Positions 1-63,498 of a DNA stretch of 64,000 nt are shown piece by piece. Made by a program: the position numbers and the translations under genes. Positions within the stretch are counted from its first letter, which is position 1, and the number at the start of each line of letters is the position of its first letter. Source of the stretch: Opeltia flavorubescens (Eukaryota > Ascomycota > Lecanoromycetes > Teloschistales > Teloschistaceae); assembly GCA_000442125.1 (NCBI GenBank), contig KE546982.1:519889-583888 (forward strand). Direction: 5' to 3'. Under the pieces are notes generated by a model. That model saw only the letters and a list, made by a program, of their open reading frames with translations. It was not told the DNA's origin and searched no databases.

Positions 1-171
1 CAACGACTCCATACCCCCCAATCAACCCCTACACCACCGGCTCAAGATCTTCAACTACAACGACTCCATACCCCCCAATCAACCCCTACACCACCAGCTC
101 AAGACCGCCCGATGTTGAATGATCTTCAACGACAACAACTTCCCACGCCAGCGTCCACGCCTGAACGTTCG
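1..171 (+). repeat. 57-bp in-frame coding minisatellite
   Basis: Bases 1-57 and 58-114 are near-identical 57-bp units, one 19-residue repeat each (QRLHTPQSTPTPPAQDLQL type). A degenerate third copy follows to about 171 (DLQRQQLPTPASTP). More units may lie beyond the left edge. Unit length is a multiple of three, so copy-number change would keep the reading frame. Confidence 0.85.
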
Positions 172-1359
172 GACATGATCCAACCATGGGAGAACATTGA
201 ATGCGAGGCGAGAGATGGATCGGAAGTGAATGACTCGCACAAAGGTATTGAATTGCCCTAAAGCATTAAAGCTCGCTTTAATTCCATCCCAAATGTCAAT
301 CAAATTCACCAGGAGATGATGAAAGCTAGGTTTTATGTCTGGNGATCTGCTATCTACACATTCTCTTCTCACCTTCTTGTTAGTGTCTTTGGCTGATTAT
401 GACCCTCTTGAAATTCAGGACCCGCCCATGTATTTTTCTGGATGGTCATATCTTCGCTGGCTATACTCATGATGGCGATGGCTTTCATGTACTTCAAGCC
501 GAGCAAATCTCTACCAGTTGCTCAAAATGAACCAACTTCCTTCGGGGACTTCATCCGACCACCATCTACAGATACTCTCTCTGCTATCGCAAAATCTCGT
601 GACAGACGTCAGAACGATCCAAATTCTCTGTTGTCATCGCTACTCGAAGAAGCATCACCGATCGACGCCCTCGGCGATCTGGAGACGCAGTTTTCGAATA
701 TCGGCGCGGCGATTGGCCTTCTTAACCAACGACTTAAGCAAGATCTTCCCTGTTGCTTGAAGGAGTATCAGGAATCAAACCGTAATCATCCGGCCAATGA
801 GAGAAGTAGAAATCTGCTAGCCGCCGATCTGAAATCCATTGGCGCAGGTTGTCATGATTTGGGTAATCGGATAACATCCCTCCAGCCATCGCTAAATACG
901 ATTGTCGCTGCTTACCATGCGTACAACTTCAATCTTACGAATGAATACGAAAATCTAATGCTGGAAAGCTCTCATCGGAGGATTACTTACATCATCAATG
1001 AGATCGTCTTTAATATGACTGGGATATCACCACTACCCGAGCGATCGTACCAAATTCAAGTTGAAAGAAATCGTCAGGCACGGTCCAAAATCCAGCCTGA
1101 GATACTCGTCCTAGACACGGCTTCTAGTGATCTAAGCAGAATCACAAAGTTGGCTCCGGAGATCGGCTACGAACTTGATGAGTTGATTGTGCGATTAGGA
1201 GCAGGAGGAAATCCAGCTTTTCCTTCCTCATCATCCCTTGAGGCTAGTGCAACGCCTCACGATTGGTATTGGCAGCTCGCTCGAAAACACGGAGTCGGAG
1301 GTCACGCGCAGCTCGCGAAGGAGAATTTTGAAGCTTGGTGGGATCGTCTCGAATGCTAG
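1..1359 (+). CDS. Membrane-anchored helical protein with aromatic C-terminal module (5' partial)
   Basis: Unrecognised orphan, cut by the left edge. Frame 1 is open from base 1 to a stop at 259, encoding a Pro/Gln-rich low-complexity region. A donor (GTATTG at 245) and acceptor (TTCAG ending at 418, with CTGAT 22 bp upstream) keep frame and join it to an ORF ending at 1359, giving 394 residues in the window. A hydrophobic helix lies at about residues 86-106, then a long helical domain. The end carries DLSRITKLA and, 40 residues later, WYW then FEAWW-DRLEC. The same order occurs in the genes at 36000-36980 and 62539-63498, so I infer a paralogous family. The 174-bp intron is long for this window and contains an N. 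If it is wrong, the conserved part starts at ATG 442 (305 aa) and the left ORF is a separate gene end. Confidence 0.55.
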
Positions 1360-2428
1360 TGTACTCGAAAGAGAGAAGTCAATGCAGCTTCGGGTTATGG
1401 TATCAAACAGGTCGCAATCCGATCAAGAAAGAGCGATGTCTTTTGATTGCTCTACACTTCAGGACATGCAGCCGAGATGACCAGCCGTTTTACCGTTGGA
1501 GAGCACGGCAAGATACGTACAGTTTATCCGCAATTCTCAATCGCAAATATTTCCAGAGACTTCAATTCTAATCCGCAATAGCGCTTTCTCGAATCCGACC
1601 GCAGCTTTCATACCAGAATTATGCAGTCAAACATCGCGAACGCGTGGAAATCATGAAAGATTCATGAGACAATGGAGCGAGTTGCAGTCAGCGATTCACC
1701 GCATACCTCGCCAATAGTTCGCACACAAATACTATTGCTGAGCTCATTAGCTTGTCAGGGTCTTAAGTTCGAGNATACCGGGTAAGAATCCTTGAGGATG
1801 ACGGTGGACTTGCAGGCTCCGAATCTCAGGTATGCGCTTTTTCTACTTCCTTTGGCAATTATATCTTCATCTTTCGAGCGGGGAGCTTGCATGGCACGCA
1901 TGAGATACTAGGCACTCCGAACGAAAGACATTTCCAATCACGGCGCTTTGGTGTGTACTTCCCCCCTTGTCGGTCGTAGGGGGAGTGAATTGCTATGCCT
2001 GAATAGGAGGTTTGGATTACCTTTCGAGCATTGTATGATCTGGAAAGACTTTACCACAACCATGTATTGGAAAGCGAAGCAAGGTATCGAAAGCGTCAAT
2101 TTTGCATGACATGAGATGTTACAGTAGGTGACAAAGGACTCGTTAATAGGGCAGAAAAGTTACTGTATCTTAGCTGTAGACCGTGAACTATCAAATCGGC
2201 TGCATAAAGAACAGATTGGAACTACGAACCTATTGAATTACCACTGCCTCGGTATTGTCTCGACGAACGATGCAGATGATGTAAGGTCCTACCGCGGCTA
2301 AACCCCTCCTCGAGCTCTAGCGTCGAAGCTCAAAAGGTCGTTCCTAGAACCTACCAGACAGATATCTCTCATCCGGGAATGTTGTCCGAGAAATTGTATC
2401 ATATCCGTACCAGCTACCTATCGCCGAA
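1360..2428. other. No convincing gene; possible gene debris
   Basis: Short plus-strand frames at 1384-1717 switch frame and lack splice sites that would join them. They look like debris of a decayed coding sequence but match nothing I know. An isolated N is at 1774. Nothing else is supported. Confidence 0.4.
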
Positions 2429-3329
2429 ATGTCCATGTCAATTCTAACCGCAATGCTATCTTTTTCAATTTCTTGCCTCAAGTGGGGGCCCTTCTGCATC
2501 TTCTACCTTTTCGTGTTCCTGAAGGTGTTTCTCAATCCTAAAATCGAGTTCTTTGAACGAGAATCGATCAAGGCTCAAAATCCAGTAGATATACCGCCAT
2601 TTACAAAGTACGAAGGGATCATGGCGTTTGTGCTCCTCGTTATTTTGGGGATCTCCTACCTGCAAACTCTGTGGCTCTTAGGAATTGGATACCGTTATTT
2701 CATCAAGCGATCATCAGACACGCGCCAAGTGTACAAACCAGACAAGAATCTGGAGCACGAAGCAGCAGCTCAAGCACAGGAAAACAGTGCGCAGCAGGAA
2801 GTGCATGACTCCGCAGCAGTTGACGCACAAGTACGACACACAGCTCCGGAAGTGGATGACCCAGACATTCGTCCAGATCATGACGCAGCAACACAAATAC
2901 CTGATTCAAAAATTCCTCCAAAGCAGCGCACTGTAATTGAAGTATATGATGAGCTCGACGCAGCTTCGGAATATCACTCAGCAGCTGAATACTTGGATGA
3001 CACCAGCCCAGAAATAATTGATGATGTTGAGAATAACGCCGCAACGGAGGACTCTGCACCACCGAAGCGGGGGACCATATCACTACCCCCCGAAAACCTC
3101 CAAATAAGCGACCCACAGGAGGAATCAGAGCGCGAACTCCAACAGTCAAGGTCGCGAGAGCCAGCAGACGTGAGTGGATAAAGCCTATTCTTCGTGAAAA
3201 CATTGACGAGTTCTAGAGTCAACTGGAACAGATTTCCTGTGGGATACCTCCAGCTTGCCATGGCGATTACCAGGAATCCACGTTGTTACCATCGGATGTT
3301 GAGGCAACGTTTATCGACATAGGCGAAGG

Positions 3330-3363
<34 letters not shown>

Positions 3364-4078: not shown

Positions 4079-4718
4079 GACTTAACCGCCTTGGTGGAAA
4101 ACATTCTCGCCATCATAGAGAGAATCTTTGCAGCCAATGTTGTTCTTCAAACGGCGATAGGCAAATCATGGTCCTTTCATGAGATGCCATCCTTTACCGT
4201 TACCAATGGTTTCCACTTAGTAACCAAACCAGTAACGCTCTCTTCCAGGAATAGCTNAGAGATTCGCTCGGTCGTTCCCAAGTTTTTACAGTATTGGAAT
4301 ATAACCCTTTCTTTCTTCGCTTCTTTGTACAGCATTATGTCCAATTTGCTGATCTCGAGCTTCTCGAATTTTACAAACATTCCCGCATCCTGCCGGAAGA
4401 ATTATGGTATCCTAAGAAAATTAGGTAGTAAGGTTCAGAACTGTAATAATCAAGTATCTCGAACTATTCGATATGATCGTTCGTGATTTCTTTGTATTAG
4501 TAAGAATAGCGTGATTCCTACGTTGGATTAGATGATGTGCCCTGAGTATAATTCTACCCGGTAATTTGGGAATTACCTCATCCAGGCTAAATCAAGAATA
4601 GATCTCGCTTGGCGTGAAGTAGAAAGCACCAATCTAGAATACGTGCTACCCGGAAAGCAACCAATCTTCGCCAGCCTACCTGTTCACGTCGCCTGTACAC
4701 GGAAGCCACCGATAGGAT
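4079..4718. other. No supported gene
   Basis: An open frame around 4091-4486 has only a TTG start, contains an N (4257) and shows no splice context. I treat this stretch as intergenic. Confidence 0.5.
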
Positions 4719-6742: not shown

Positions 6743-8384
6743 ATGGATGCAGGAATCGCACAGGTATGCTTGTTGGCCTCCAAACAGACCGGAAATGTGG
6801 ATTGACACGTGATAGCCTGCGAGCCGCATTCCCAGACCAAAAACCCCGGTGCGTGGAAGCGAGAGGGCAAGCATCCCGGTGACACCGTCAGCTCGGGTCA
6901 ATTGTAACCAAGCGGCGCCAGTGGGTGGTATCAATGCAGTGCCCATCAACCGCAATGATGAGGAGACCGGGCGTCAGAACGAACCTGGAACTCGAAGAAC
7001 ATCGAGCTTAACGGACGCGAGCACGAGCGGTATGAGTGGCGTGAGAGGCCGGCATTTGGCACACCCACCCGTGCGTCAGCGTTCCTCTGGTCGTGTCGGA
7101 TACCCGGGACGCGTGGATTCAAACGGGAACGAAGACTCCGCCGAAGGTCAGATCACTGAGTCAAACGGAAGAAAGGGTAAAGAGCCGTCGGGGGGAAGTA
7201 GGAGCCTAGGACAGACTGCCTCAAGTAAATGGTATGCGGCTGCTAAGATCATCGCAGTCCTGTTCCTGATGGTACTGTTCCTAACCATGGCGATGTATAA
7301 GTTCGCATACGTTTGTGCTGCTGCGGATTTTGTTGGTACTCTTACATGCCTGTTGCCCGGGTTCGGGGTTGTCTGTAGAGCTACATGTAGCTCATCGTCG
7401 TTCCCTACGATGTATGTGTTCGCGGAGACTTGTTCGAAATACCCAGTTGCAGGAAGAAATAAGCCAATGCCCGCAGACTGGAAGGCGTCACTATATACTG
7501 ATGGCATCGACCTCAATTTGGAACAGCTTGTTTCGGACCTCGCCAACTGTACTTCCTATATGCGGCGATTAGAGACACTCGAGGTCGCCACGGAGGTCCA
7601 AGCTGCTTTGGCGGAAATTCCAATGACAGAACCTTGCATAGGTATACACAAGTTGACAAGTTCTCTGCCACAGCTTTACCAACACGTCACCCTTTTCGCT
7701 ACGTCGGCTCTTCAGTACATCCGAGAAGCCGAAAAAGACAGCGTGCGATTGTTGTCCAATTCCCTTGGTGGTCTTTCGAGGGACGATTTGGTCGAACAAC
7801 AGACACTCTATACTCGGCACGACGCGGTAAAACCATGGCTTGAAGAACATAGCCATCTCCTCACGTTCGCCGAATCGCTCACAGGAGATCTCATTGCAAC
7901 TCTTCGACATCTGAATGAATCTAAACAACACGTATCCTATGCCCACAAGCAAATCCATCGATTCGAGAACGAGGCGATGAAGAAGTTGCCATTTTACAAA
8001 CGCTGGTTTTACAAAAGACCCATGGAATTGGACCGAGCATTGAAGATTCTGACGAACATCTCCGATGACTCGGAAGTGACAAGAACTCACTTAGTCACTA
8101 TAGTAGACCACATGGATCAGCTAATGCCACCACTGAAAAACCTCTGGCAGCTTGTATTCGGTGAAGAACTACACTTCGAGCTCGGCAGCGGTGGCCTTAG
8201 GATGTTTCACTCCATGTGTCAAAGACTTGAGACCCTCTGTTATCAGACTTTACAGCGAACTGACGACGCCAAAGTGATTCGACGCGTCAAGAGCGGGAGC
8301 GAAAATCCGCACGGCGTCGTCGGTGAAAATCCAAAGAATGATGGTGGAGAAGGTCCTGCTGGGGAAGGGGTGGATACAGCATGA
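6743..8384 (+). CDS. Single-pass membrane protein with large Cys-containing helical domain
   Basis: Unrecognised. Tiny exon 1 (6743-6763, MDAGIAQ) is followed by a 52-bp intron (GTATGC, ATTGAC, GATAG; phase 0) and exon 2 (6816-8384), giving 529 aa. No ATG is available in frame at the head of exon 2, which supports the micro-exon. Residues 8-145 are disordered and Arg/Gly/Ser-rich. One TM helix lies at about 148-170, followed by a Cys-rich stretch and about 330 residues of helical domain, then a Gly-rich tail. Near the end, WQLVF and, about 20 residues on, a FHSMCQRLETLC segment occupy the place of the aromatic module in the gene at 1-1359, so it may be a distant relative. Topology and ligand unknown. 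Confidence 0.75.
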
Positions 8385-9121: not shown

Positions 9122-10119
9122 TTAGGTAGACGAACCGGAGTTTATTGCCGATGCTTGCATGACTTGATAACGCTCAGCAGCTCCATACCCTCGCGGCAAC
9201 CCGATCTTTGACTTCGGGAGTTCCGTATCTAAACGTTTTCGATCCTCATCAAGGACACGTAGCTCGTCCGTGAGGGCTTTCATTTGAGACTTCAGAAGAT
9301 TCAGCTTCTGGGCCCGGGCGCTACGAGGTTGGTTTTCCATGACGCGATGCTGCTCCATCTGCGCTGGATTGTCTTGAGTTCGTGCTGGATAAACTTGGGT
9401 CGGAGCTGGGTTATCCTGGTTTCCATCATCAACGGAGCGGGTGCTATGTGTGGGAGTAAAGTGTGTCGAGTCTCTGGAAGAGGACGTGGAGGGGAGAGGA
9501 GGCTGTGTGGATACCTGGTTTTTATCTGCTCGGGATCTGATCAGTCTGATTGGAACTTCCTGCAGAGAGACGTGGAAATACCTGTGTGCTGCCCAACGGA
9601 GCATGAGAATTCATGTGCGTCTTTACCCAAATCATGCATCTTCTCCTGCACGTTCATTGCATCTACTCCAAGAGCGTCGTGAGCCAGCTTTTTATACGCC
9701 AGCATTAAAGCCGTAGCCTGCTTCGCATCGGACAGGTCCATGGCCGCTTCTAAGTTCAAGTTGGTCACCAGGCCCTCCAGCCCACATATCCTCTTCAACA
9801 TTTCCTTCTCGGCTTGCTTGCTCTCCTGCTGCTGCCGCTGTTGCAGTTCGTGCTTGAGATCTCGAGCACGCTGACGCTCGAGCTCAAGGGCGATGGGGAG
9901 ATAACCTGGTCTCATTTCGAATGCTCCGGCTTGTTGACTTATCCGGGACTCGGGTCGTTGAGATTGACGTTCCATATTGGAAATTGTCTCAACGGGATAC
10001 TATACTCTGGAAGGTCGACGTCAATTTTACCACAAGAGTAAGGAAGTGGTAGAGCTTAGAGGTGGTTAAGTGCTTACATCTGCAGGAGGGTATCCTCTGG
10101 AAGAAAAGAGTATTGACAT
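9122..10119 (-). CDS. Coiled-coil protein, Gln/Glu-rich
   Basis: Unrecognised. Three minus-strand exons: 10078-10119 (14 codons, MSILFSSRGYPPAD), 9582-9999 and 9122-9525, giving 287 aa. Introns are 78 bp (GTAAGC, ATTGAC, TATAG; phase 0) and 56 bp (GTATTT, CTGAT, GAGCAG; phase 1). Each junction removes an in-frame stop. Residues about 45-120 form a strong coiled coil (LELERQRARDLKHELQQRQ and onward). A Thr/Pro/Gln-rich linker with a repeated QDNPA element follows, then a second short coiled coil (LKSQMKALTDELRVLDEDRK). No TM or signal peptide; probably soluble. First of three minus-strand coiled-coil genes (9.1-12.7 kb) that share small first exons. Confidence 0.75.
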
Positions 10120-20553: not shown

Positions 20554-22684
20554 ATGCCACCTCAACCAAACAATCACCGCGAAACTAGCATCCATGCTTT
20601 GAAAAGATTATGGAACGGCAACTATCTTCCTAAAAAGTATCCGGCTGAAAATCTGGGCGATACGGTGATAATGGAATATCTTGGTCTCACGAAAGACACC
20701 ATTAAAGACAATCGCTCATTGACCTGCCTCTGGGAAGGCGATGATGCTATTATTCCCCGAGTCATCAAGAGTCAGAAGGGTACCGGGAAGCAGTGTCGCC
20801 TCACAGCAGCCGTCCTCAAGCTTGCAAGGCAGGAAATAACAGGCATCAGTGGCAAGAAGCGACCTCAGCCAGCTAAGGACCCCAGCTCGAAGCGCCTGCG
20901 TCGCGAGAAATCCTACGCCAGAATATCCGACGTACAAAGTTCGGACGATGCGTCTAATACAGACAAAAACGGCGAAATCGCCGACGGGGAGGATGATCAA
21001 GGGCGTGACGATGACGAAGAAGATACCCCTGTCAAGGTAAATACTTGCCGCTTCATATTTGCAAACGAATCTCTGTCGTCTCTGCTCTGGCTCCATTGTG
21101 ACTTCGAACACTCATTTCCAAGTAATCCTGGCTGACTGTGGATTTTAGGGTGTTGAGCAGAGCCCAGCATTCGCCCAATCTCCTTTTGAACCTGTCTCGC
21201 CCGTCTCTACCTTAACCCACTCAACCACGCGGTCCTTATCGTCGGTCTCTAGACTCAGTGGCACACCCCCAAATGACAATGAGATGTCGAAACGATTGAA
21301 GATCAGTTCTTCACAGCGGTCCGGCACCGATCAGACCTCCTTCAATCCTCTGAAAGAGNATGGCTTCCTTACAAAGGACTTTCTAATGGATGAAAATGGC
21401 GCTGGAAATCTCAACTGTCCATCGGGTAGTGCTACATCTGGTCAGGCTGACCGTCTTCCTTCTACATACTTGGAAGATCAACTGTCAGATGAAGAGCAGC
21501 TGGGATTGAAAATACCAGAACAGCCGCCATCAGAACTATATGAGCTAGCCAACAATGATGGGACGGACAAAGATGCTGTCCCAGCTATAGCTAATTCAAT
21601 ATCGTCAGTCGCAAAGCTGCCGACAACGGATATTGAGGGTGCGGTCGCTTCATTGGCACCGGGGAAATGGGTCTCAGCATCCGCCATCGAGCTCATACTC
21701 CAGATGTTCCCGCACACCGGAACTCGGGTAATCAATCAGTTTGACATCCCCCAACCTCAGAAAATCTCTTGGAAGAAAGATGTAGATAGTATTCTGTTGC
21801 CAATCTTCTATTCTTTCCATTGGATACTGGCACAGATTGATACCGTCAATGGTATAATCACTATCTATGACCATCTGTCTAACAAGCATATCAAACCTAC
21901 AAAGCAGGCGTTGCAGTCATCGCTTGCCAATTGGGATAGGAAAGACTGGGCGTGGGCCACTGTGCATAGCCCACCGCAACAGAACTCGATAGACTGTGGA
22001 GTCATCGTCGTCAGAACCGCCATAAGCATCCTCATCGGATCTGATCTCCCTACGTCACACAACAGCGATTTTTGGAGACCGATATTCGCTGCGATACTTG
22101 GTGGCGGTGATCTCACTTTACCTCGTCCCACACATGGAACCTACGTGGGAAAAGGTGGACCCCGACCTCAAGCAGCTCGACAAGAGCTGGAGTGGGCCAG
22201 GAACGAATCGTTCAAGTGGAATACCTATTGCGCCAACCTTAATTTAGCGTCAAATACACTGAGTTCTCTGCTGGACTTAGCAACACAGCATCAACGCGCA
22301 AAATCCGGAGAGTTAGAGACCGCTAAAAATCACTGCGATATCATAGATCGGTCCATTACGGAATTTCATCAACTACCTTCGACCTCATATAACGATGCCA
22401 TGAAGGAGCAAGTCCAAGCTACATATGAACACAATGCCGAGAGGGTTGCAACACTATCCGACCAGAACAAAGAACTTCAACGCAACCTACTTAACGTCCA
22501 GCGTGCCACCCAAGCCATTAATGAAGAACTCCGGTCCAGTACCCTGACCTTCAATCAGGTCAAGTCGAACCGAACCGCCGTACAGGCGAAGATTGGAGGG
22601 CAAGCGCAGTTTATAAAGGAAGATCTGGAAGGGCTTGAATCAGCCATCGCCGAGGATGCCAATAACTCCGAACAGCCATCGTAA
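20554..22684 (+). CDS. Ulp1/SENP-like (C48) cysteine protease with coiled-coil tail
   Basis: Deconjugase/isopeptidase-type protease of the SUMO-protease fold. Exon 1 20554-21036 and exon 2 21149-22684 are joined across a 112-bp intron (GTAAAT, GCTGAC, TTTTAG; phase 0), giving 672 aa. ATG 20554 is the first in frame; upstream only GTG exists. The order of catalytic motifs matches C48: HWILAQID (His about 385), IYDHLS (Asp about 402), then PQQNSIDCG with Gln about 438 and Cys about 444. So it looks catalytically intact. The N-terminal 160 residues carry a small folded part and a basic/acidic linker (KRLRREK; EDDQGRDDDEED). About 170 residues after the protease are coiled coil. An N at 21359 makes one residue ambiguous. 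Substrate (SUMO or another Ubl) is not decidable; some fungal C48 genes travel with transposons, but no element ends are seen here. Confidence 0.85.
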
Positions 22685-29541: not shown

Positions 29542-30562
29542 ATGGTGCGGTGATAGCCTCACACGTCGCCTTCTTGCAATTCCCCCTGTTTTTCAACCCC
29601 AAAAGAAAGCGGATTTCTGAACCAACTGAAACAATGGAAGAGATTGGAGTAAGATCTTGTGTTTCGTTTGAGAAGGACGGGGAGCTACCGGCCCGGAAGA
29701 TGGTCATTGAAGGGTCAATGGGAGACTGTACTCCCTCTCATTCCGTTGAGTTGTTGCCTGCGCTGCAACGAGCTGCTGCTAATGCGCCTGATTAGGATCT
29801 CGAAAACCTAAGCTATATGCTGTCGATGTGTGACAACACTCAAATCATCGCTGGACCTGATCGAACGCCGTCGGAGGAGGAGTCTGACAATTTTGACCCT
29901 GAATCACCAACTCTAGCATTCAGTACCAATTTCCCCATGCAGAGCTCAGAGCTGGACATTCCTCATTTAAGAAGGCAAGTGGGTCACAATTCGTTCGTAA
30001 AAATCAAGGGATTCCCGAATTCAGTTCTGACCTTGATACCTGCGGCAGCTTAAACAACGAAATCAAGCAACAACTTGATTACACAGTGAACGATTGTAAT
30101 CTACTATACGACAGCGGAAAGCCTCCATTGATCGTGGATACAATAGAACCCAGCCAATTGTCCGCCGATTTTTCTATCCCTGCAGCTCACATCCAGTGGT
30201 CAATCGAAAACTGCGAAAAATCGCTTGCTGCTCGAGCGGTACAACTAGCGGAGTCTGGACAGACGTACAATGATCTATCAAATGATCATCAGCAGGCGCA
30301 CGAAGAGGTCGTTGATGAGATCTTATGCCTATTCTCTAATCACGTGGATACCTCACTCGGTGACGGTTCCTGGCTTCCGGAGGTAGAATTAGCAGCCTGG
30401 GACATTGTGACTCGTCCTTTGGTGGACAATGCTCTAAATGCATGGAGTAGGAAAGATATGGCAGAATGGGAATACTATGACCTTAAAATGGCCGATGACG
30501 AAGAAAGACGCCGCCTCGCTTTCACACGGACTTTTCTAGACGGAACAGCTCGGGATGAGTAA
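29542..30562 (+). CDS. KRISEP-motif soluble protein, probable nuclear
   Basis: Unrecognised. Firm exons: 29796-29974 and 30025-30562. The stretch ending at 29744 joins across a 51-bp intron (GTTGAG, GCTAAT, GATTAG; phase 0). The intron 29975-30024 is best explained as GC-AG (AAG/GCAAGT). The first exons are tentative: an 8-bp exon (29542-29549) joined to 29606 gives MVRKRISEPTETMEE and keeps frame; total 287 aa. The basic-SEP motif matches RKRRRTSEP and RKRRRASEP in the duplicated pair at 59212-62051, so I infer a dispersed relative. The C-terminal half is helical with conserved-looking Trp (HIQWSIENCEKSL; EVELAAWDIVTRPLVD). No TM segment. Confidence 0.55.
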
Positions 30563-35107: not shown

Positions 35108-35999
35108 TATGGCGCTTCTAGCATAGTGCGTCTGTTCGGGAAATGATGCCATCAACCTAGAAGGCTTTCGAGCATCAGAAAACCTCGGAGTCGTGTTAAT
35201 TAACATTCTGGCAACAATATTTCCTGGCGAGTCACTTCATGAGCCAGGGACGAGGAACATTCTAGAAATCTTCTGTCTCGGACTTCACTGATCGTCGATG
35301 AGATACATAAGGCTCGAGCCAGTAATACAATTGACAAACTCAAATCCACTTTAGCAAGCGTCCCATCCCTCCCCTCCAATCTTGACTGTACCCCTCCCCC
35401 TAGAAAGCTCTGGCTCTCCCAGCTACTGCTGTCGTTTCAATTCACATCTTGACCGGAGCCGCCGACGCCCTCGGCTTCTAGTACAACACCTCCTGGGCCC
35501 TATTTCCAAAGAGCGAGGAACAAATTCCATGTTGATTACGATATTTAGCTTGTCAAGGAAATGCTAGATATCAGAGATTACTAGGATGCATAAGGCTAGA
35601 TGAATTTGGGGTAGCCGAGGCATCGGGCCAAAAATACTACCTGCTGATCTAATCATTGGCGTTCGCACATTCAATACGCGAAAGTAGCCGAAGTAGACCT
35701 GATCAAACATCCAGCCTCAATCACCAAATAACGCAAGACTTCACGATACAGCTGCCGACCAAACAATGCGATAAATTGACTTGGACCAGAAGTTATCAAG
35801 AACGACGGCCCTTAGTTTCGCCAGCTTTGTCCCAGCCACAGTCCCAGCAGATTTTTCTCCACAATATCTTGAGCTACCTGGCAATTAATAATCCAGCTAC
35901 GAATCTGTCGTTCCCATAGACCCCTCAGAATTCACCCAAGTTCTCAGTCTCTCGCAACTGTGTCACCTACTGCCCAGGGTGTGGAAGCAGACAGCAACC
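35108..35999. other. Possible 5' exons of the next gene; otherwise intergenic
   Basis: The frame of the gene at 36000 stays open leftward to about 35896 with protein-like content. An acceptor (AATCCAG) sits at that edge, so a 5' exon may extend it. A further plus frame (35656-35919) is only TTG-led. Confidence 0.4.
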
Positions 36000-36980
36000 A
36001 TGTTCCTTTGTCGGAATGTCATGATCACATTAGCAACCTTGATCTTGGCCTGGTTAATATACAACCTCATCGGTCCTGCAGGCTTTCGAGGTCCACCCAC
36101 CGTGTCCAGCCCAATCTGGTGTCAGATGCTGGCATCTTTAAATGTTCCTCAGACGCTGCCTTACCTTCATCAGCCCGCATTTCGGGCTCACCGGGTTGTC
36201 CTTGAGGAGATTGGTCGCCCAGCGATGCTCACGAACCTTTCCGATGCTCATGCAGCGGTTATGTTGAGTATCAATACCACGAGCCAACATATGGTGGATT
36301 TTGTCAAAAATGTACCGCGAAAAACTATGTCTCGAGGACGGTACAAGGAAACGGACTTTGAGGAGGATATCAATTTATTACGAAGGGATATCCAGGACAC
36401 AAAAACTAAAGTTCATCGCAGTATCGATCAACACGAAGCGATACGAGATCCATATCAATTTCATCGTTTGCTTGCAGAGCGAGACCTCGAATCTGGCCAG
36501 CTGAACCAATTGTATGAGTTTCTAGTCTATGTGAATCCCAGGTCATTACGTTACAACCCCTGGATCGATCATCATCCTAGAATCCTAGCTCCATTTGAGG
36601 TTAAGATGTTAAAGCTTCGAGAAGCGCAACAAGCTGTGGACGCATGGAGATCAGAGCTATCTCAACTAGAGCGAATCGAGCAAATGGGAGAAGCAGTACT
36701 TGAGAGGTTAGATTGCCTTGCGACGCCACTTCCACTGCCGAGAACGGACGCAGGCAATCCTCCTAGTCTGACTACTCTTACGACCATCGCTATCGAATTG
36801 TTGGAGAGATGGTGGCAACCGTACATATTGTTCAATAACAGAGAAGCTCAGGACAAGTCTTTTGAATGGTTACTGCAACGGTTTCGGCACTGCATTTTTG
36901 AGAATGAACCATTCAAAGTGAAATGGAACGAGAACATTGAGTCCATAGCGGCAGAGAGGAAACGACCACTTTCTCATTAA
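36000..36980 (+). CDS. Membrane-anchored helical protein with aromatic C-terminal module
   Basis: Unrecognised; 326 aa from ATG 36000, possibly longer at the N-terminus. TM helix at about residues 5-25. A long helical, charged domain follows (RRDIQDTKTKVHRSIDQHE; RDLESGQLNQLYEFL). QLERIEQMGEAVLERLD at about 222-238 closely matches RLERIEKLGQALDDEFR in the gene at 62539-63498. After about 45 residues comes ERWWQPY (about 269) then SFEWLL (about 287), equivalent to WFW and FNAWWDDL there and to WYW and FEAWW in the gene at 1-1359. I infer one paralogous family spread over 63 kb. Topology is probably type II or type III, with most of the protein on one side. Confidence 0.75.
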   Translation: MFLCRNVMITLATLILAWLIYNLIGPAGFRGPPTVSSPIWCQMLASLNVPQTLPYLHQPAFRAHRVVLEEIGRPAMLTNLSDAHAAVMLSINTTSQHMVDFVKNVPRKTMSRGRYKETDFEEDINLLRRDIQDTKTKVHRSIDQHEAIRDPYQFHRLLAERDLESGQLNQLYEFLVYVNPRSLRYNPWIDHHPRILAPFEVKMLKLREAQQAVDAWRSELSQLERIEQMGEAVLERLDCLATPLPLPRTDAGNPPSLTTLTTIAIELLERWWQPYILFNNREAQDKSFEWLLQRFRHCIFENEPFKVKWNENIESIAAERKRPLSH

Positions 36981-44090: not shown

Positions 44091-45116
44091 CTAGCCCCAG
44101 AAAGAATTCACGGCGCGTTGAACAAGACCAGTGGTCCAATCAATGGAAGCTTCGAGGTGTGCTTTGAGCTCGGATATCTCTGTAAGCACTGACAAACAAA
44201 CCAGAACCGAACCCATTGGCAATATGCGTATAGGAAATAGTATCATGAGAATCACCAACACCGAGTGTAGCATGACCTGCTTCGGTAATATCCTGACCTC
44301 CAGCATTTTTCCCAGGACCACCAATATTTGCAACAGTGTGAGACACCTCTTGAAACTTCCTTCTACGTACCAGGCGAACCCTTTCGCGATAACAAGCATG
44401 AGTATGATAGCTAGCAAGATCGTATTGATCATTCCATGTAGCTTCAAACCCACCCGATGTAAAAGCGCGACGAAGCGTCTGTACATCATCCCGAAAAGCC
44501 AATCGTGTACCGATCTCACCAAGTCGTAAGTGGGCAACAGCGGAGATCGACCGGGGATTTTCTTCAGCGTCCGAATAAATGGATCGATAGCTAGGACGAT
44601 GGCAGGAACCTTTTCCAAGGGAACTTTGGCTTTCCGGGCAGTTCTTCGCTGCTTATCCTCCAGCGTCTCGACGATGGCTAGGGACGTTTCGGATTGAGAG
44701 AGACTTTCCTCAGGCGGTGCCCTCCAGAAGCGCCATTCGATACCAAGCACTTGCCTCCGGCCGGGAAGTGTCGCTTGCTGCGCTTGTCTTTGATGGTGCT
44801 CTTCGATATTCTCCTCGTAGAGGGTGCACAGGTATTGGTAACCTGCGCCAGCCGAGCTGACAAGAGATGCGGCCTTGGACCATACGGCGTGATATGAATG
44901 CTTTGCGTAGGATATAGTGACTAGATACCATCTCTTAGGACCGTGAGTTTCTTGCATTTGGTGAGCGTCAGATTTTGTATCGTTGGCTTGAGAATCTGGC
45001 AAATTGGCGGCCGTGATGACAGGAATCGAACTCTCTATTTGGGAGCGTTCTATTTCCGCTACCGTGATCATCAGGAAGAATACGATAAGGATCAGGGAGT
45101 AGAATAATTTTGCCAT
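44091..45116 (-). CDS. Multi-pass membrane protein with N-terminal signal/anchor
   Basis: Unrecognised, 341 aa, unspliced from ATG 45116. A hydrophobic N-terminus (FYSLILIVFFLMITVA, residues 5-20) could be a signal peptide or anchor. About 200 residues of mixed hydrophilic sequence follow. Three to four hydrophobic segments lie between residues 229 and 312 (NTILLAIILMLVIAKGFAWY; SVLVILMILFPIRIL). The end is amphipathic. No family motif seen. Alternative minus frames around 44140-44502 are shadows. Confidence 0.65.
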   Translation of the reverse strand: MAKLFYSLILIVFFLMITVAEIERSQIESSIPVITAANLPDSQANDTKSDAHQMQETHGPKRWYLVTISYAKHSYHAVWSKAASLVSSAGAGYQYLCTLYEENIEEHHQRQAQQATLPGRRQVLGIEWRFWRAPPEESLSQSETSLAIVETLEDKQRRTARKAKVPLEKVPAIVLAIDPFIRTLKKIPGRSPLLPTYDLVRSVHDWLFGMMYRRFVALLHRVGLKLHGMINTILLAIILMLVIAKGFAWYVEGSFKRCLTLLQILVVLGKMLEVRILPKQVMLHSVLVILMILFPIRILPMGSVLVCLSVLTEISELKAHLEASIDWTTGLVQRAVNSFWG

Positions 45117-46384: not shown

Positions 46385-48008
46385 TCATAATATCTGATTA
46401 GCATCCGACGGCGCACCACCCATGCTATGTTCCCAAAGATGCAAAGCCCAGTCTTTGTTCTCCTTCACAGCAGTCCCTAACTCTGATTCGATACGGCGAA
46501 TTACGTTGTCACGTTCCATTACCCAGCTTCTGTCAAAGATTTTTGAATTATGCCCGTTAATCTCCGGTGAAATTGTTCCTACGACAAGCCTTCGGCAGAG
46601 AACCGCCAGTTCCGATGAAAGGGTCTTTACGGGGCTGGTACTCCTGCAAAGTTCCCCTACAAAGTTGGATATCCAATCATCGGGGTTCATATGAGGAGAA
46701 TAGACCGATAGATCTCGGAGACGTTCATTTCCGATTGCTGGAAGCCGGATTGAAACGGGCTTCAAGAGGTTCTGACTCCAGAGACTGATATGATTGTCGA
46801 TTCTCTCAAAAAAATCGAAGTCGCTCGTAGTATGACCGTCCAGCTTTCTTAGAGCTGTCTTGAGGTCCTCGGCTAGCGCATGAGCCTTGCGTCTGCGCAC
46901 ATCGGTATTTTCTTCGACGATTAGCCACCGTATCCAGCTTTGGGACTGGACTTCTTCCTCGAGTTTAAGGACTAATTCGCCGGTCGTATTCAGCGCGATG
47001 CCTAAAACTTGACGCATAGATAGGTAATTCTCGGTAGGGCGTGCAGATCTGATCTCAGCTATTTTCATTCTTACATTCTGGACGAATGCTGTGTCCAGCG
47101 AGCGAATTTGTGCCTCGAGGTGGTGGGTGTATACTATTGGCTGAGGGAGTAGTCGGTGGTTGACGTCCTTGTTGAGTATCCTCAGCACATCGATCCACGG
47201 GTATGCAAAAACGGACCTCCAGGTCCTCCTCTGATGATCTATCGACATAGCTTCCGCTATAGCGATGAAGACGAGCTTGAGTTCTTGGTTAATTATATCT
47301 TTCCCCATACAGTAAGTCGCCGAATACATCTCCACTTGATTAGCGAGATCATTGTGGGCCAAGGCACTGGATTCTGATCCAGACAAATAAATCAGCATGA
47401 TCCAATCGCACACGGAGGCGGCCAGACATCGATTACCTACCGGTAACATTTTTGAGCTTCTCCACCAAGGGATCAGTCCCCTTTAGGGATACAATCTCCA
47501 ATACGATCTCCCGCAGCTGCGTTGTCTGAACTCCGTACCTCAAATGGCTGCTCAGGAAATCTGTCATAGATTCAGATAGGGTGGCGGCGTAGTCATGGTT
47601 GGTTTTTTGATAGTCCCAATGGGCCACGGCCCAATCCGCGGAAAACTCGACATCGGGCCAGCACCAAGCGCCTAAATATGGCCGGCTTACATCCCACTGG
47701 CATGGTCCTTCATAAAGGGCCTCCTGGGCCCCCTGAATGAGCCATGAGCCACAATGGAAGGGGAAAAAGCCGAAGGCGAGAACGTGCCACCAAAATTGCA
47801 TGACATCGCTGAATTGGAGCTTGAAAGGCGCGTGTTTAACGACCTTTTTGACAAATATCCAGACCAATATTGTACATATTTGCTCGTAGACGTAGAGGTA
47901 GAAGCCGGATATTGCTGCGATAGTCCAGGACGCAAGCCAAACTGGTAAGGAAACCCAATTCCGGGGTGCGCGTATTATGTTCGAGAGGAAGCCGAGTGCT
48001 CCTGCCAT
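46385..48008 (-). CDS. Large multi-TM-start membrane protein with helical domain
   Basis: Unrecognised, 518 aa. Exon 1 47441-48008 and exon 2 46385-47373, with a 67-bp intron (GTAGGT, GCTGAT, GATCAG; phase 1) that exactly restores frame between two otherwise truncated ORFs. Hydrophobic helices at about residues 20-40, 43-54 and 72-91 (FWWHVLAFGFFPFHCGSWL) are followed by a Trp/Tyr-rich stretch. About 390 helical residues follow (DTAFVQNVRMKIAEIRSARP; RRRKAHALAEDLKTALRKL). The end (KDWALHLWEHSMGG) is aromatic but not clearly the module seen in the gene at 62539. Likely an integral membrane protein with a large soluble domain. Confidence 0.78.
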
Positions 48009-48378
48009 GATCCGCCGGCTGGATGCTTGAAGAGACCTAACCGTGGATTACAATCTCGGAATTTTCTTTGGTTTCAATCAAAAAGGCTGAAGGGTAATTT
48101 GGGAGATAAAGAGTCAAAGCCGACTATTCCTAGAATTAACGCGTCAAACCCCTTGTTTCAAATATTAGGGCAGCCGCTTCCTTTGTCACGTCATATAATG
48201 AAAGCCCTAGCCCTATGCCATTCTCCACGCGGAAGACTTTTGCTTTCCTCAATCTTCAAAATCCGCATCTACATCTCAAAATATTGTGACTACTTCAGCC
48301 ATCTGTACACCAGCCAACCGTACACCAGCAATCTACCCATTAATTCAGAATTTCACCTTCCAAGGCATTCATAAAAAC

Positions 48379-49744
48379 ATGGCAATTATCATAGCTTGCA
48401 AGCAGATACGGTCGATTGGCCATCTGCTGGGGAGGCAGTTACTCTGCATCCTCCTAGTTATACTTATGGATCATCTGATTGCAGTTGGCATCGCAGCTTG
48501 GTACTGGAATACTCCCAAACGTAAAGAATTGGGTCCTCGGACTTTCAGAAAAGAAACAGATGCATTGGCCAACGTACTCCTCATCACAGCGGCTTTTTTA
48601 ATACACATGATTAGGTACGTATAACCCTTTCAAAATCGCTTGGAAATCTACATCCCGCGCGCTCCCTGCAATGCACATTACTGATAACTATAGGCACCTC
48701 GACATCTCATACATATCTTCTTCACGAATACCTGTGGCTCTTCGGGAAGGGACGCTATCCTGCTTGGGTCGTACTTCGATGTCATCCCAAGAGCGCGTTG
48801 ATGCGTGGAATATTGATAGACTCGATACACATACCGATCATCAGCAGGTAAGTACTTACAACCATACTCAATTCTTAATAGCAGAGCACTTACATGTAAT
48901 TCAGTCGCCGTGTCAAAGTCTCATCATTCCAATGCAGGCTCGGGTTGACAGCACAAGTCGTGATCATGATCATCGACTTTCAGCTAGACCACGTTTCGAT
49001 GCAGCCATAAAACAATCGCTACGGTCCTTGTGCTCGGGGCTCGAGATACTCCTTCCCGATTGGAATGCAATCAGGGGATGTCAATCTCCAACCGTAAAGA
49101 GACCAAGCCCGGTACGGCGGGAGGATCTACGCCTGACCCTAGGGCCCTCGCATCTTAGTGTTGTATTGCACCCTCAATCATCTGGCGATCGACAAATCTC
49201 GCCAAGAGGGACGGAACCAGCTGCTGGGTGCTCTCTCCCAACTGGAGCTGAAAAAGATGCTCGAAATGCTCATGAAAAAGCTTTAGTAGCCGTCTTACGA
49301 GACCTCAAAGTCGACTTGCTCCATACAGCGATCGCATGGAATGTGCCTGGCTACGGGGAGAAAGAATTGAAGACCTTACTCAAATTTGACGCCGATGAAG
49401 ATGCGCATGCTTTGAGAATTCCCGATGACTCGAAGCTGAAGCGTTTCTGGGCAGCAACGGAGCAAGATGTTCGGAACGGAGAAGTATTTGATACCATGCC
49501 CATGCGGATATATCCCCGGGAGGATCTGAAACCCTTGAATGAGCTAAGGTTTTGGAGGAAGATCAATGCGCATCGCTTCGGACCCACAACGGAAGACGGC
49601 TTTCCTCCTGGCTATCGACAATCATATCCAGACGGACCTAGCAGCACGGATTCCGGCTCGTCCATGGGAGAATACGATCGGCAAGATGGGCTTTATAGAA
49701 AGGTCTGTCGATGGTTTTCATCTGCAAAGGTATCCAGCACTTGA
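48379..49744 (+). CDS. Two-TM protein with large soluble domain
   Basis: Unrecognised, 409 aa. Exons 48379-48614, 48694-48847 and 48905-49744. Introns: 79 bp (GTACGT, CTGATAAC, TATAG; phase 2) and 57 bp (GTAAGT to TTCAG; phase 0). The second is a multiple of three with no stop, so retention would insert 19 residues. TM helices at about 20-43 (LLCILLVILMDHLIAVGIAA) and 61-78. The soluble part has a disordered Ser/Arg segment, then a helical globular domain (KALVAVLRDLKVDLLHTAIA; DLKPLNELRFWRKINAHRF) and a Ser/Gly-rich tail. A GTATCC donor-like site at the end leaves open a further exon. Confidence 0.75.
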
Positions 49745-50855: not shown

Positions 50856-50910
50856 TCTAAGTTCATCATTCAAGCGCCAGCGAAATTACATCTCACCCAA
50901 CGATGCCCGG

Positions 50911-55683: not shown

Positions 55684-55727
55684 GATTCCGCGAAGGTTCC
55701 TGACATCTGGATCCCAAATCCCGGATC

Positions 55728-56480: not shown

Positions 56481-57678
56481 ATGCCGGTGAGAACCTTTAA
56501 GGAATAATAGGGATTCTGTTGTCAGTGAATTGACATTCGTACTGCAGCCTCAAGCCAAGGTTCACGACGTTCGAAAACATTTGGAGCGACACAACATATG
56601 GCTTGAACATCCCAGCTTCCACCAGTACACCAAATTACACGATTTGATCATGATAATCCTTGACAGGCAGCCAGAGAAAGGATTACGAGCTATTTCCATG
56701 AAAAAACTCCAACAGACTATCCCATCCCAGATCACTGATGGCACTCAAAAGCTTGGCGCACTCAAATTGCTAGAGGTTACCCCTGAATTTAGTNCCATGA
56801 CCTGGGATGGGATAGGCGAAAACACACCATTCGACCAATTTGCGTTTTCGAAAAGCGCCCTCGACGCGATTATTGCAACACAGAAGACGAGTATTGATGT
56901 CATAGAGGAGACAGGGGAATCTATCTACTTTAGTTCTGTCGGTCTTGAACGAGTACACAATCGATACTTCTTACCCGACTTTGTACCAGGGAATCGCGAG
57001 GAGGATAAGTCACTTGGTTTGACAATACCCAGGCCAGATTATGCGTATGGATATAAAAATACTTTTGTCAAACAAGATGGTGGATCCGTCTCACTAGTAG
57101 CTAGGGGTATCCCCGGAGACATGGTCTCCGTTTGCCCCAATATCATCCACCCATTCATGGTCGTCGAGTTTGGAGGGACAGACAGAACATTAGAAGCCGC
57201 AGAGAACGAAGCGATCCGCGCAGGAGCAGCGCTCGTCAATGCTCACCACGAGCTTCGAGTCAAAGCTGCGGAAGCAAAAGCCGCGAGATGTGCCGAACCG
57301 GAACCAAAGGTCTTTCCTATCGTCCTTATTGAGGTCGCTCAGCTACCACCGGCGCCCGCATCCCACTTCCCCGAACCTGAACCATCTGCCGAGCTCGAAA
57401 CGATCGCCTTTTCGTTCGCATGGGTCCCCCAGATGGCGAACCTGTTCGTGCACTGGTACGAGGATCGCGGGCCCAGACTTCCACCAGCATTCCATGCGAC
57501 GCGTATCAACTCGTACCTCTTTTGCAAACCAAGCGATCTTGACAAATTCCGTGATGACATCATCAATATTCTAGAGTGGGCAACGAAGACGCGTCAAGAC
57601 GACATTGTGAAGATGATGAGGGACATCTTTCCAGACGATCGAGATGGGTCTGGAGCTTCGATTCCAAAGCCAGGATGA
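56481..57678 (+). CDS. DUF7924-like fungal protein (PD-(D/E)xK-like)
   Basis: Two-codon exon 1 (56481-56486, MP), a 61-bp intron (GTGAGA, ATTGAC, CTGCAG; phase 0) and exon 2 56548-57678 give 378 aa. The layout recalls the fungal DUF7924 group: PRPDYAYGY (about 162-170), then HPFMVVEFGGTDRTLEAAEN (about 203-222) with AGAAL, and at the end a Trp-containing strand (NLFVHWYED) and DIINILEWATKTRQDDI. These could be the PD and E positions of a PD-(D/E)xK-like fold; the Lys expected after E is replaced by Phe-Gly-Gly, so activity is doubtful. I assign the family from memory of its pattern, without a search. An N at 56794 affects one residue. Function of the group is unknown to me. Confidence 0.65.
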
Positions 57679-58913: not shown

Positions 58914-59030
58914 GGAAATTTTTCACGCGACGAGCAACGTTATATGGTCAGCAAGAGGAGAATTCAACGCAAGGCATTTGCCTTTCAAATTACAGAATTA
59001 GTCTAAAATAGAAATCAACTCCTCGACAGC

Positions 59031-60358: not shown

Positions 60359-61133
60359 TTTTGATGGTGCAAATCTCGACAGAACGTTAATATGTAAGCG
60401 TCTATGTGAGTGTATTGAAGAGGGAGAAGTCTGCTGTGACTCTGGAATGTGTGCGATGATCAGGAACCAGGAGTATCCGGTAAAAAGAGTAGCAGAAAAA
60501 AGGTTGGAAAAAGAAAACGCGTTTCTTTTTATTTTTATTTTTTAATGCGTGGTGTTTGTTACCACCACAAATATTATAATCGCGTTTTCCACCATCATAT
60601 ACATCACATTTATGAATATTTTACCAACCCTACTAACTAAGGTTACCACAGCTATGATCGAAAGCAGCCAATGGATAGAATCTTTATCTCGGCGAGCCAA
60701 GCTACGAAACCAGTGTATGCATCGCCTACAGTGCTAAAGCTGTCACATTGGAGCTGTAACAAAAGAGCGGCTCCAAGAAGGATACTGGGTCGTGAGCTTT
60801 TCATGGCGACGAGGAATCAATTTCAACATCTGCTAGAACGGAATCCAACGCCATGTATTTGCCCTTTGGGTCACAGGAATCTATCGGTAAAGAGATATCA
60901 TCTCCGTAAGAGCTACAATTGATTTCGATCAAGCTTGAATAACACCAACAAAGAAGAGAAAACCGTGTGGCTCATCCGTAATTTCCTGGACTCCCTTCAG
61001 TGTCGAGGGTCCATATTCCCCTTACTTTCTTGAGTCCATACCACGAATTGCACACAATTCCAACTACCACATCGACGACCGGAGGTGTATTGACTGGCAC
61101 ACGGCAAGCGCACCTAGCCTAACGCTTGCGTCT
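60359..61133. other. Duplicated intergenic segment
   Basis: No gene. The part around 60550-60780 resembles 62190-62400 (ATACATCAC, ATTTTAC/ATTTTGC, TTGTAACAA-like blocks), i.e. upstream flanks of the two paralogs, and 60913-61122 is copy 2 of the downstream flank. A T-rich run lies near 60525-60543. Confidence 0.6.
60913..61122. repeat. Duplicated downstream flank, copy 2
   Basis: See the copy at 59031-59222. Shared blocks keep order and orientation, ending with C(A/G)C(A)CC(T)AGCCTA-type sequence just 3' of the paralog stop codon. Confidence 0.8.
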
Positions 61134-62051
61134 TCATACATCCGCCTGCTTCCCAGATTTTTCGTGCGCGGCCGGGTCTCCGATATCTGAGACTTGGAGT
61201 CCGGCATCCAAACGTTTTGCGCGAGGAGCGGCAAGGTCTTTTCCAATATCGATTGGTTCCGACGCACGGCGTCTCTTTCGCGTTTCTTGAAGTTCTTGTC
61301 CTTCAAGATTCTCATCCTCTTTGCGCCTCTTCTCCGCGAGATCCTTCACAATCTGGCGATAGTCCATATGAGGATTCTTGAGCTTCTACAAAGCTGTTAG
61401 TATCATATCATTCGCATCACGTTGCGTTCTTTATAATACACCTACATAAATCTGCAGCGTGTCAAATGTCTCCTTATTAATCTCTCGGAGACCGTCCAGC
61501 ATTCCTGCCATCAACGTAGCTTGAGTACGAAACTCCTCCAATCCCATACTCTCTTGTGGGGATGCAGACTCCTTGCACTCGTCAGCGTGCTCTAGTGTAG
61601 GTTGAGTGAGATCTACCTTAAAGGAAGCCGCTGACATTCTGTCGCGAAGTATCGAAGGTCTGTTAGTACCATACAGCCGATGTATCTTTCCAAACCGACG
61701 CGCGACAAGCGCCCATTTCATGAATTCTAAATCTGGGAGTTTCAAAATGCTCTCTGGACTCGAAATGCCTGCCATTTGAGCTGGAGTAAGACGACTCGGT
61801 GTCAGCTGAGTTGGCGAGTTTAGGCAGTCTTGAGCGGTTGCCCAGCTCTCGCGAGACGGTGATCTTGATACGATAGGCCCTGCTTCCTTCAACGCGCATT
61901 CAAAATGCTTGGATGATATTCAAAAGCTCTTACCGGCTGGTGAGACGTAATCTGATGAGTTTGTATTCATAATGTATCCAAGGGATAATTTGTAGTTTTT
62001 GGGCGAACTTGCGGGTTTGAAAGAATCTTGTTCTTCAGCCATGTTGGACAT
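61134..62051 (-). CDS. RKRRRASEP nuclear-type protein (duplicate copy 2)
   Basis: Unrecognised, 267 aa. Exons 61934-62051, 61446-61879 and 61134-61385. Introns are 54 bp (GTAAGA to GCAG; phase 1) and 60 bp (GTAGGT, TACTAAC, TTGTAG; phase 0), the same phases as copy 1. The start is MSNMAEEQ; a second Met three codons on is possible. Exon 2 has a Ser/Thr/Pro-rich half then TLMAGMLDGLREINKETFDT, matching LLMASILDQVREIHPKVFDS of copy 1. Exon 3 has a charged helix (LAEKRRKEDENLEGQEL), then TRKRRRASEPIDIGK and PRAKRLD. Probably nuclear. Relative to copy 1 it is shorter mainly because it lacks the pentapeptide array. Confidence 0.85.
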
Positions 62052-62538
62052 CGGACTAGATGACTGGCTGAATGAGGCCGCTCTGGTGGATACGAGCAAG
62101 AGAAGGTCCAAATCACTATGAGAAAGAATACAAGATAGAAGGTTCGCTCGGCAGAAGAATGTATGAAGAAAGAAAATGTTTTTGACTACGGATTGTGCGT
62201 GTCACTACCACATACATCACCTTTACCGAGATTTTGCTAATTTTACTTATCGATGACTCCGAAGCTCCTATCTCGAGTGGCTAACCTAAATCAGCTTTGG
62301 TTTCCTAATTTCGGCGAATCTACCCGAAGGAGCCAACAATGTGTAGACCGCCTATGATACCGAGGCAGTCTAATCGGGATTGTAACAAGACCACTGAATC
62401 CCGAGAATGAGATTTGATAGATATAACCGTCAGCGTGGGAATATGGTATTTTTGCTGATATAAAGCAATTGTTCAACCAGTATAAGGTCCCGGCAGAACC
62501 AGGTGACAAAAAAACGGTGGGAAATCATCGCCTGGATA
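62052..62538. other. Promoter side of copy 2; no gene
   Basis: Contains the counterpart (62190-62400) of the 60550-60780 flank. Short frames only. Confidence 0.6.
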
Positions 62539-63498
62539 CTAATTTTCTCGTCTCAAGATCTGCCGCCAAGACCTGTTCAGCCCTTCGAGATATCCCTTGG
62601 AGTTCTCATGCTGGCAAACTAGATCGTCCCACCACGCGTTGAACTGAAATTCCGAAAGCTTTGTACCACCCTTCACCGCCACGCGAAGCCAGAACCATTC
62701 TTTACCCAAGGTCAAGTCAAATGATCCCATGTCTAAGGAGGACAGTAGCTTTCGGAACTCGTCGTCGAGTGCCTGGCCTAGCTTTTCTATTCTTTCGAGT
62801 CGAGCCAAGGCTTCCATTAGGATAAGTCTACCAGACTCAATCTCCGCCAGCTCGCTGTCCATCCGGTCGAATCGAGCTTGGAAGGTTGTGCTGAAGTGAC
62901 CTACCCCTGGCAAGGGTGGTACGTGACAGTTGGCAAGTACTTTCTGCCAGGAGATTGAACTCAGATCTCGGTGCTCTAGTGATTGACTCCGATAATGGGT
63001 ATCGACAGCTTCGATTACTTGTTCATATGTTTTCCGGAGTCCAAGTACGTTCCTAGCGAGGATGTTGATTGTTGCGCTAGCTATGCTGGCCCTGGCGTAA
63101 AGGTTTCGATTCACCATCCCTGCATCGATTTCCTCGGAGGACCTTTTGAGCGCACAAGCCAAGTGATTAGAGAGTTGGAAATCGACGCTTATTACACTTG
63201 AGTTGGATGATACCTCCTGTTCTTGCAAATAGACCAAGACACGTGTGTCTAATACTTCAAGATCCTGTAGCCTTTGGAAAAATGGATACTTGGTGAGGGA
63301 TCGATTCAGCGGTAATTGTGATAGGTCTTCAAGCTTCAAGATAAAAGCTGAAACGGCAAGCACAGTACAAAGGGGCAAGAGGACGTATGTAGAGAGCATC
63401 GCTCTGAATCTCCGATTATTGCTGGCAAAGCAATTAGAGAAGGTAAGCCCCAAGCCTCTCGATTTGTGTGCCAAGCCGCTCCCCTCTGTTTTGGCCAT
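62539..63498 (-). CDS. Membrane-anchored helical protein with aromatic C-terminal module
   Basis: Unrecognised, 319 aa, unspliced, ATG 63498. A basic N-terminus (residues 1-33) precedes a TM helix (about 34-54, LSTYVLLPLCTVLAVSAFIL). The helical domain includes RLERIEKLGQALDDEFRKLL (233-252). EWFWLRVAV starts at 267 and FNAWWDDLVC ends at 295, followed by a Trp/Arg tail. These elements recur in order in the genes at 36000-36980 and 1-1359. By the positive-inside rule the short N-terminus is cytosolic and the helical domain lies across the membrane. Its start faces ATG 63596 on the other strand across 97 bp. Confidence 0.8.
   Translation of the reverse strand: MAKTEGSGLAHKSRGLGLTFSNCFASNNRRFRAMLSTYVLLPLCTVLAVSAFILKLEDLSQLPLNRSLTKYPFFQRLQDLEVLDTRVLVYLQEQEVSSNSSVISVDFQLSNHLACALKRSSEEIDAGMVNRNLYARASIASATINILARNVLGLRKTYEQVIEAVDTHYRSQSLEHRDLSSISWQKVLANCHVPPLPGVGHFSTTFQARFDRMDSELAEIESGRLILMEALARLERIEKLGQALDDEFRKLLSSLDMGSFDLTLGKEWFWLRVAVKGGTKLSEFQFNAWWDDLVCQHENSKGYLEGLNRSWRQILRREN

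Follow-up and report, generated by a model that had tools for sequence, protein, structure and literature searches.

The described fungal systems closest to the locus considered here are the wtf spore killers of Schizosaccharomyces pombe and the cwr-1/cwr-2 allorecognition locus of Neurospora crassa. The wtf genes encode a fast-evolving family of membrane proteins concentrated on the smallest chromosome (PMC5478263). The cwr locus consists of two linked genes, one of them encoding a membrane protein; the products are CWR-1, a chitin monooxygenase (AA11), and CWR-2, a protein of eight transmembrane segments (TMs) with PF11915 (PMC9550227). The cluster described here lies on a small contig of Opeltia flavorubescens, KE546982.1 (C18 below; 870,562 bases in a genome of 34.4 Mb and 23 contigs). 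The window is a stretch of 64,000 nucleotides, C18:519889-583888. It holds three genes, A, B, and C, which the original prediction grouped as an orphan membrane-protein family with a shared C-terminal aromatic module. A and C belong to one subfamily (F1) and B to another (F2). The two subfamilies are homologous, F1 proteins have a conserved end module, F1 genes and a further gene, R, lie beside genes for proteins with two TMs, and full-length copies of the family are found on C18 only. Linked, co-copied, and diverging genes are what the wtf and cwr accounts lead one to expect; allorecognition and killer readings are proposed for the cluster.

About one third of the C18 sequence, window included, was analysed. 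It yields 2443 open reading frames (ORFs), taken from stop to stop with at least 50 amino acids (aa), those with more than 30% X being excluded. The three ORFs exist at about the positions originally named (Table 1). Note that searches of the whole genome score the best candidates only, so that copy counts are lower bounds. In these searches C retrieves the A locus (E 5e-4) and A retrieves C (E 1.9e-3). Additional copies turn up on C18, and broken ones on C21 and C17. A search with B recovers a set of its own, likewise on C18, with a best E of 7e-58. Searches of the ORF set split the family into F1 (A, C, and the ORFs at C18:503381 and 686338) and F2 (B, 491232, 288237, 330433, 585611, and 605078/605639), and an iterated search from A also pulled in three F2 members. 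There are five open F1 copies, all on C18 (the four above and 275330), and six F2 copies, one of them interrupted by a stop. Neither 503381 nor 686338 has an ATG ahead of the TM.

F1 and F2 are connected by profile comparison. hhalign gives 92.1% over 268 colinear columns, or 90.2% over 161 columns in another alignment. Against this score of 57.5, reversed profiles reach 20.0 and 17.7, the best of 100 heptad-block shuffles 28.7, and comparisons of F1 or F2 with eight other families of the region at most 18.5. When the fifth F1 copy is added, the match is 86.8% over 155 columns (score 51.8; reversed control 22.8), and leave-one-out runs range from 65.2 to 92.0% with scores of 43-57. Because the match exceeds the reversed, shuffled, and other-family controls, and A and C retrieve each other, the proposal that A, B, and C are distant paralogues of common descent is well supported. 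Alternatively, F1 and F2 could be non-homologous, with A, B, and C alike through helical, coiled-coil-like composition. Pairwise identities in a three-way alignment are as low as 20-26%, and the hhalign probability drops to 65% when C is left out. This alternative is very improbable, however, as every control (heptad-block shuffles, reversed profiles, local families) falls far below the F1/F2 score and the match is colinear over 155-274 columns. The LERIEKLG-type segment that had been pointed out in all three proteins is indeed in register in the alignment, but is not conserved in the paralogues. Structure models, each built on three sequences, are of poor quality, with pLDDT 48.1 and pTM 0.39 for C, and 41.9 and 0.25 for B. 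A gene at 6743-8384 had been suggested as a diverged fourth member; its ORF, D, gives only 0.2-0.3% in profile comparison with the family and is set aside.

The end module, W-x-W...F-x-x-W-W-x-x-L, is kept in all five open F1 copies. Their alignment has 12 invariant columns, six of which fall inside the module (W-x-W, F, W-W-x-x-L); another is the Cys of LPC/LAC. In every copy a Cys also occurs within a few residues after the module. As a regular expression, the module matches four of the 2443 ORFs, all of them F1 (the 275-kb copy is outside the ORF set). As a DNA pattern, it has 2 exact matches in the window, in A and C, against 0.01 expected, and genome-wide it has 19, where the reversed control has 8. 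Of the 19, five are on C18 (2.5% of the genome) and are exactly the five F1 genes; the other 14 are DNA-level matches irrespective of reading frame. B has no exact module and ends in WW...FEWLLQRF..C; it and its nearest paralogue show WW or WRW and then EWLLxRF..C. The end of B lines up with the F1 module in the 268-column alignment and in some leave-one-out runs. The 161-column alignment and the one with five F1 copies stop before it, and other F2 members do not retain such an end. The module is thus a feature of F1, with perhaps a trace in B. Since half of the invariant columns fall in it, there is good support in F1 (A and C) for a conserved functional end domain, but this part of the original prediction does not extend to B and F2, where the exact module is missing. 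Similarly, A and C agree exactly in motif order and in distance from the C-terminus, and B only loosely.

A hydrophobic segment near the N-terminus is found in each of ten F1 and F2 proteins (the 275-kb copy is outside this count), and a single TM is predicted there in A, B, and C, as had been proposed. The 605-kb copy has a second window above the hydropathy cut-off. Net charge summed over the ten proteins is +15 before the TM and +2 after it, with the N-flanks of A, 503381, and 686338 cut short in these sums, as their TMs are near the ORF start. N-glycosylation sequons after the TM number 34, compared with 19.7 in shuffled sequences (Poisson P 0.002). The charge bias and the excess of sequons suggest an N-in/C-out orientation, and F1 and F2 proteins probably span the membrane once, as type II proteins, and have a long helical domain. 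The 5' part of A (1 to ~242) is an incomplete exon encoding two copies of a 19-aa Q/P/T-rich repeat, and there seems to be an intron from ~243 to ~419. A 6.5-kb run of N, possibly an assembly gap, is directly upstream of A, and in the F1 copy at C18:275 kb short repeats also adjoin a run of N. As the repeats abut runs of N in both, long repeat-rich N-termini are likely in these F1 proteins.

Another component of the cluster is a set of genes for two-TM proteins. Two of these families, F3 and G, have a C-terminal domain in common (80.6% over 59 columns, score 46.5), with a core of approximately Y-x-T-x-E-x-Y-x-x-D-L-I-K-x-W-x-x-F-x-G-W-R...F-P-P-G-Y. After one sequence was added, G matches F3 at 57.7% (score 40.9), and the best of 60 shuffles scores 23.0. 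The profile of F3 and G finds ten ORFs above the inclusion threshold at nine places, seven being seeds and two new, one of the new ones weak (E 0.0038). Both F3 and G carry or directly follow two TMs with a short loop, and the similarity of these hairpins is weak (22.6%; reversed 0.1%). Among eight F1 and R genes, a set that includes two F1 fragments at C18:667 and 674 kb, six have a two-TM gene within 1.5 kb, five of the six head to head. Random placement gives a mean of 1.18 and reaches six in none of 20,000 trials, in a test that was framed after the pairs had been noticed. Later searches of the whole genome added two R copies on C18 (302.5 and 336.6 kb). They are head to head with G matches at 305.6 and 340.8 kb, 2-3 kb away, and in the region of the 302.5-kb copy, which was read, a two-TM ORF lies in between and starts the G side. 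The clearest candidate partners of the helical proteins appear to be these two-TM proteins, several with a common cytosolic domain, rather than soluble coiled-coil proteins. The suggestion of an undescribed system that includes neighbouring genes fits, the family being part of a repeated cluster with candidate partners. A further head-to-head pair exists at C18:510466-512517, made up of an F3-like two-TM ORF (E 1e-9, iterated search) and an ORF with an N-terminal hydrophobic stretch.

Table 1. Features of the window (coordinates within the window unless marked C18)
Feature	Position	Strand	Remarks
A (F1)	1..1359	+	5' incomplete; main ORF 412-1359, ATG 442 (coding part 442-1359); predicted TM and helical domain
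End module of A, W-Y-W ... F-E-A-W-W-D-R-L	1264..1341	+	DNA pattern match
Two-TM gene beside A	2429..3181	+	same strand as A; aligned with F3 hairpins; no cytosolic domain detected
D	6849..8384	+	one predicted TM, Cys-rich, helical; partial paralogues, one at C18:690834
Two overlapping coiled-coil ORFs	9122..9999	-	same order again at C18:692293-693082
Family P ORF	29903..30562	+	repeated at C18:698359; fragment on C14
B (F2)	35979..36980	+	
Q	44091..45116	-	N-terminus hydrophobic, TMs at the C-terminus; F2 copies lie near its paralogues at C18:293819 and 329056
R	46385..48047	-	two ORFs that overlap and are probably joined by splicing; N-terminal part hydrophobic, with a helical domain; faces H-G head to head
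H	48379..48621	+	two-TM part of presumed partner of R
G	48611..49744	+	presumed continuation of H by a putative splice; cytosolic domain common with F3
C (F1)	62539..63498	-	intronless ORF
End module of C, W-F-W ... F-N-A-W-W-D-D-L	62629..62697	-	DNA pattern match
F3-type partner of C, start	63596..64000	+	two TMs; head to head with C; extends to ~C18:584279, with the cytosolic domain there

These genes may be brought together in one mechanism. F1 and F2 would form a lineage-specific superfamily of proteins with one TM. Their cytosolic N-terminus would be short or rich in repeats, and outside the cytosol they would have a long domain made entirely of helices, probably with a closing disulfide and, in the F1 branch, with the aromatic module at its end. 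The helical protein would act together with the hairpin (two-TM) protein encoded next to it, several copies of which have a conserved cytosolic domain. The helical domain would face outward and sense or bind a ligand or a counterpart on another cell, and the two-TM partner would carry the signal or effect inside. The pairs would have multiplied by copying and diverged rapidly on a single small chromosome, with decay elsewhere, as under conflict. Their role may be recognition between individuals at the hyphal surface, with each linked pair as a matched set. Topology, disulfide, physical partnership, and recognition role are the parts of this explanation that we infer. A conflict-driven two-component membrane system of this kind, most likely one of allorecognition at the hyphal surface with matched pairs, is tentatively preferred. 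Allorecognition is placed first and selfish killing second with low confidence. It is possible, if rather doubtful, that helical type II proteins (one branch of them with the aromatic end module) and two-TM proteins, whose cytosolic domain would be new, constitute an undescribed system in which matched pairs decide between self and non-self or kill cells that lack the matching partner, the small chromosome being its breeding ground.

Several points weigh against the allorecognition reading, besides the framing of the neighbourhood test and the fragments counted in it. R, tried as a member of F1/F2, reaches at most 0.4% in profile comparison. No cytosolic domain was detected in the two-TM neighbour of A, and at the 503- and 674-kb genes the neighbour is recognized by its two-TM part only. 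For F2, the branch of B, pairing is not significant: one of four genes has such a neighbour within 1.5 kb (P 0.47), and two of the four have one within 2 kb (P 0.15). The genome search finds no R match beside the G copy at C18:424 kb. TMs were predicted by hydropathy with a cut-off, and topology is drawn from hydropathy and charge alone; the segment of 686338 is weak (mean 1.65, below the cut-off). Finally, no known recognition, cell-death, or signalling domain is found in what was scanned.

The gene order F1, two-TM gene, D, two coiled-coil ORFs, and P is the same in the window (0.4-30.6 kb; its two-TM gene is not itself shown as F3) and at C18:686-699 kb. Outside C18 there are fragments or stop-bearing copies on C1, C5, C10, C14, C15, C17, C19, C20, and C21; those on C15 (E 0.02) and C20 (E 0.09) are weak matches. 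In eight of eight paralogue pairs, one being a pair with the DUF7924 domain, third codon positions differ most and second positions least. This order fits coding sequence under constraint, with the reservation that protein-guided alignment itself favours it, and third positions look near saturation. The distribution of copies would also suit a selfish spore-killer cluster that has multiplied on a small chromosome near the centromere, its linked genes serving as poison and antidote or as parts of a killing complex. Full-length copies are found only on C18, fragments and broken copies are on other contigs, and an AT-rich, centromere-like region (C18:635000-660000, GC 0.15-0.31, surroundings ~47-50% GC) lies beside the cluster. 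However, Pfam scans give no wtf match, and wtf killers are single multi-TM genes, not pairs. A spore-killer cluster seems unlikely.

On C10 (1477000-1525000) D, F2, and R have several relatives close together, broken or fragmentary, that resemble a decayed copy of the cluster. C18 also carries, at ~625 kb, an ORF with a VID27 PH domain, and for this reason it is doubted that C18 is purely accessory. A mating-type-linked region was considered and rejected, the sole MAT alpha-box match found in the genome being at C10:884015-884398, not on C18; the strain is probably MAT1-1. Other genes of the region include the DUF7924 paralogues at window 56530-57678 (E 6.7e-13) and C18:613672-614745, ~28% identical to each other, and a Ulp1-type C48 peptidase domain at window 21284-22684 (E 5.6e-9).

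Known domains are scarce in the cluster. With curated cut-offs, Pfam has no match in A, B, C, or D. In the Pfam scan of C18, which covered 115 of 205 selected ORFs, ten families were matched, each in one or two ORFs, and none is a recognition or cell-death domain known to us. HET, NACHT, and HeLo are absent from A-D and from these ten families. There is likewise no match to wtf in either scan, Pfam presumably including a WTF model. The captain of Starship elements is a tyrosine recombinase (DUF3435), and DUF3435 is not among the Pfam matches in the 115 ORFs from about one third of C18. Comparison with PDB sequences gives nothing below E 0.07. A phage-like or prokaryotic defence origin was also considered, and no PHROGs or PADLOC match was obtained for A, B, C, G, or R; eukaryotic viruses were not searched for.

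A search of 5.8 billion proteins depends on shared 5-residue words and scores the candidates that share most of them, so that fast-evolving homologues can escape it. C finds no relatives in this search, and the F2 alignment finds only the protein of B. As a positive control, a 929-aa open frame at C18:629388-632174 matched 20 proteins, including one at 100%. Of these, 17 are named, and all 17 are from metagenome-assembled genomes of genera such as Caloplaca, Gyalolechia, and Seirophora, which we take to be lichen fungi of the Teloschistaceae; the best named relative is 49% identical, and the relatives carry PF27653. The control indicates that lichen-fungus proteins are in the database, and still relatives of the family are not found there. 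By Pfam, PDB sequences, and this word-limited search, the view that no known family is recognizable stands. Within the wording searched, no printed account of such a cluster was found in open-licence papers.

The control bears on another explanation, by which the helical proteins are surface proteins (receptors or adhesins) directed at the algal partner or at microbes and diversified in an arms race, and the two-TM protein is a signalling subunit. The 17 named relatives of the neighbouring 929-aa frame all come from such genera of lichen fungi, and a predicted non-cytosolic domain with sequons would fit. But the link to lichens is drawn from one protein whose best named relative is 49% identical, and no carbohydrate-binding or cell-wall domain is found in A-D by Pfam. 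This explanation appears distinctly unlikely. It is also quite improbable that the proteins are structural or trafficking components of internal membranes (endoplasmic reticulum, nuclear envelope) that evolve fast without conflict. Long helices, repeat-rich N-termini, and family M neighbours with a C-terminal TM would also suit such a role, but housekeeping components would not usually turn over in copy number or be restricted to a single small contig. Family M itself comprises small proteins with a TM near the C-terminus (C18:502003, 285654, and 672217); two are near F1 and F3 copies, and the one at 672 kb contains another hydrophobic stretch.

New fungal recognition and killing systems have come from fast-evolving, lineage-restricted gene clusters. 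If the pairs are matched sets, the cluster would be a candidate allorecognition or drive locus in a probably lichen-forming fungus. Two protein families without known relatives are defined here and are open to gene-by-gene study.

With the ClyA-type alpha-pore-forming toxins (AhlC, MakA, ClyA, Hbl-B, and YaxB) the fold was compared using a low-confidence model (pLDDT 48.1). The testable defining features of wtf and cwr-1/cwr-2 are not found in the present cluster. Dual poison/antidote transcripts and drive are features of wtf. The wtf genes are multi-TM single genes (PMC5478263), whereas each of ten F1 and F2 proteins has one predicted TM and, in this cluster, single-pass proteins lie beside two-TM proteins. 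AA11 and PF11915, the domains of the cwr proteins, are unmatched in A-D and in the 115 C18 ORFs scanned. The likeness to wtf is that of a fast-evolving membrane-protein family concentrated on the smallest chromosome (PMC5478263), here on the small contig C18. The likeness to cwr-1/cwr-2 is that of a linked gene pair, one gene of which encodes a membrane protein (PMC9550227).

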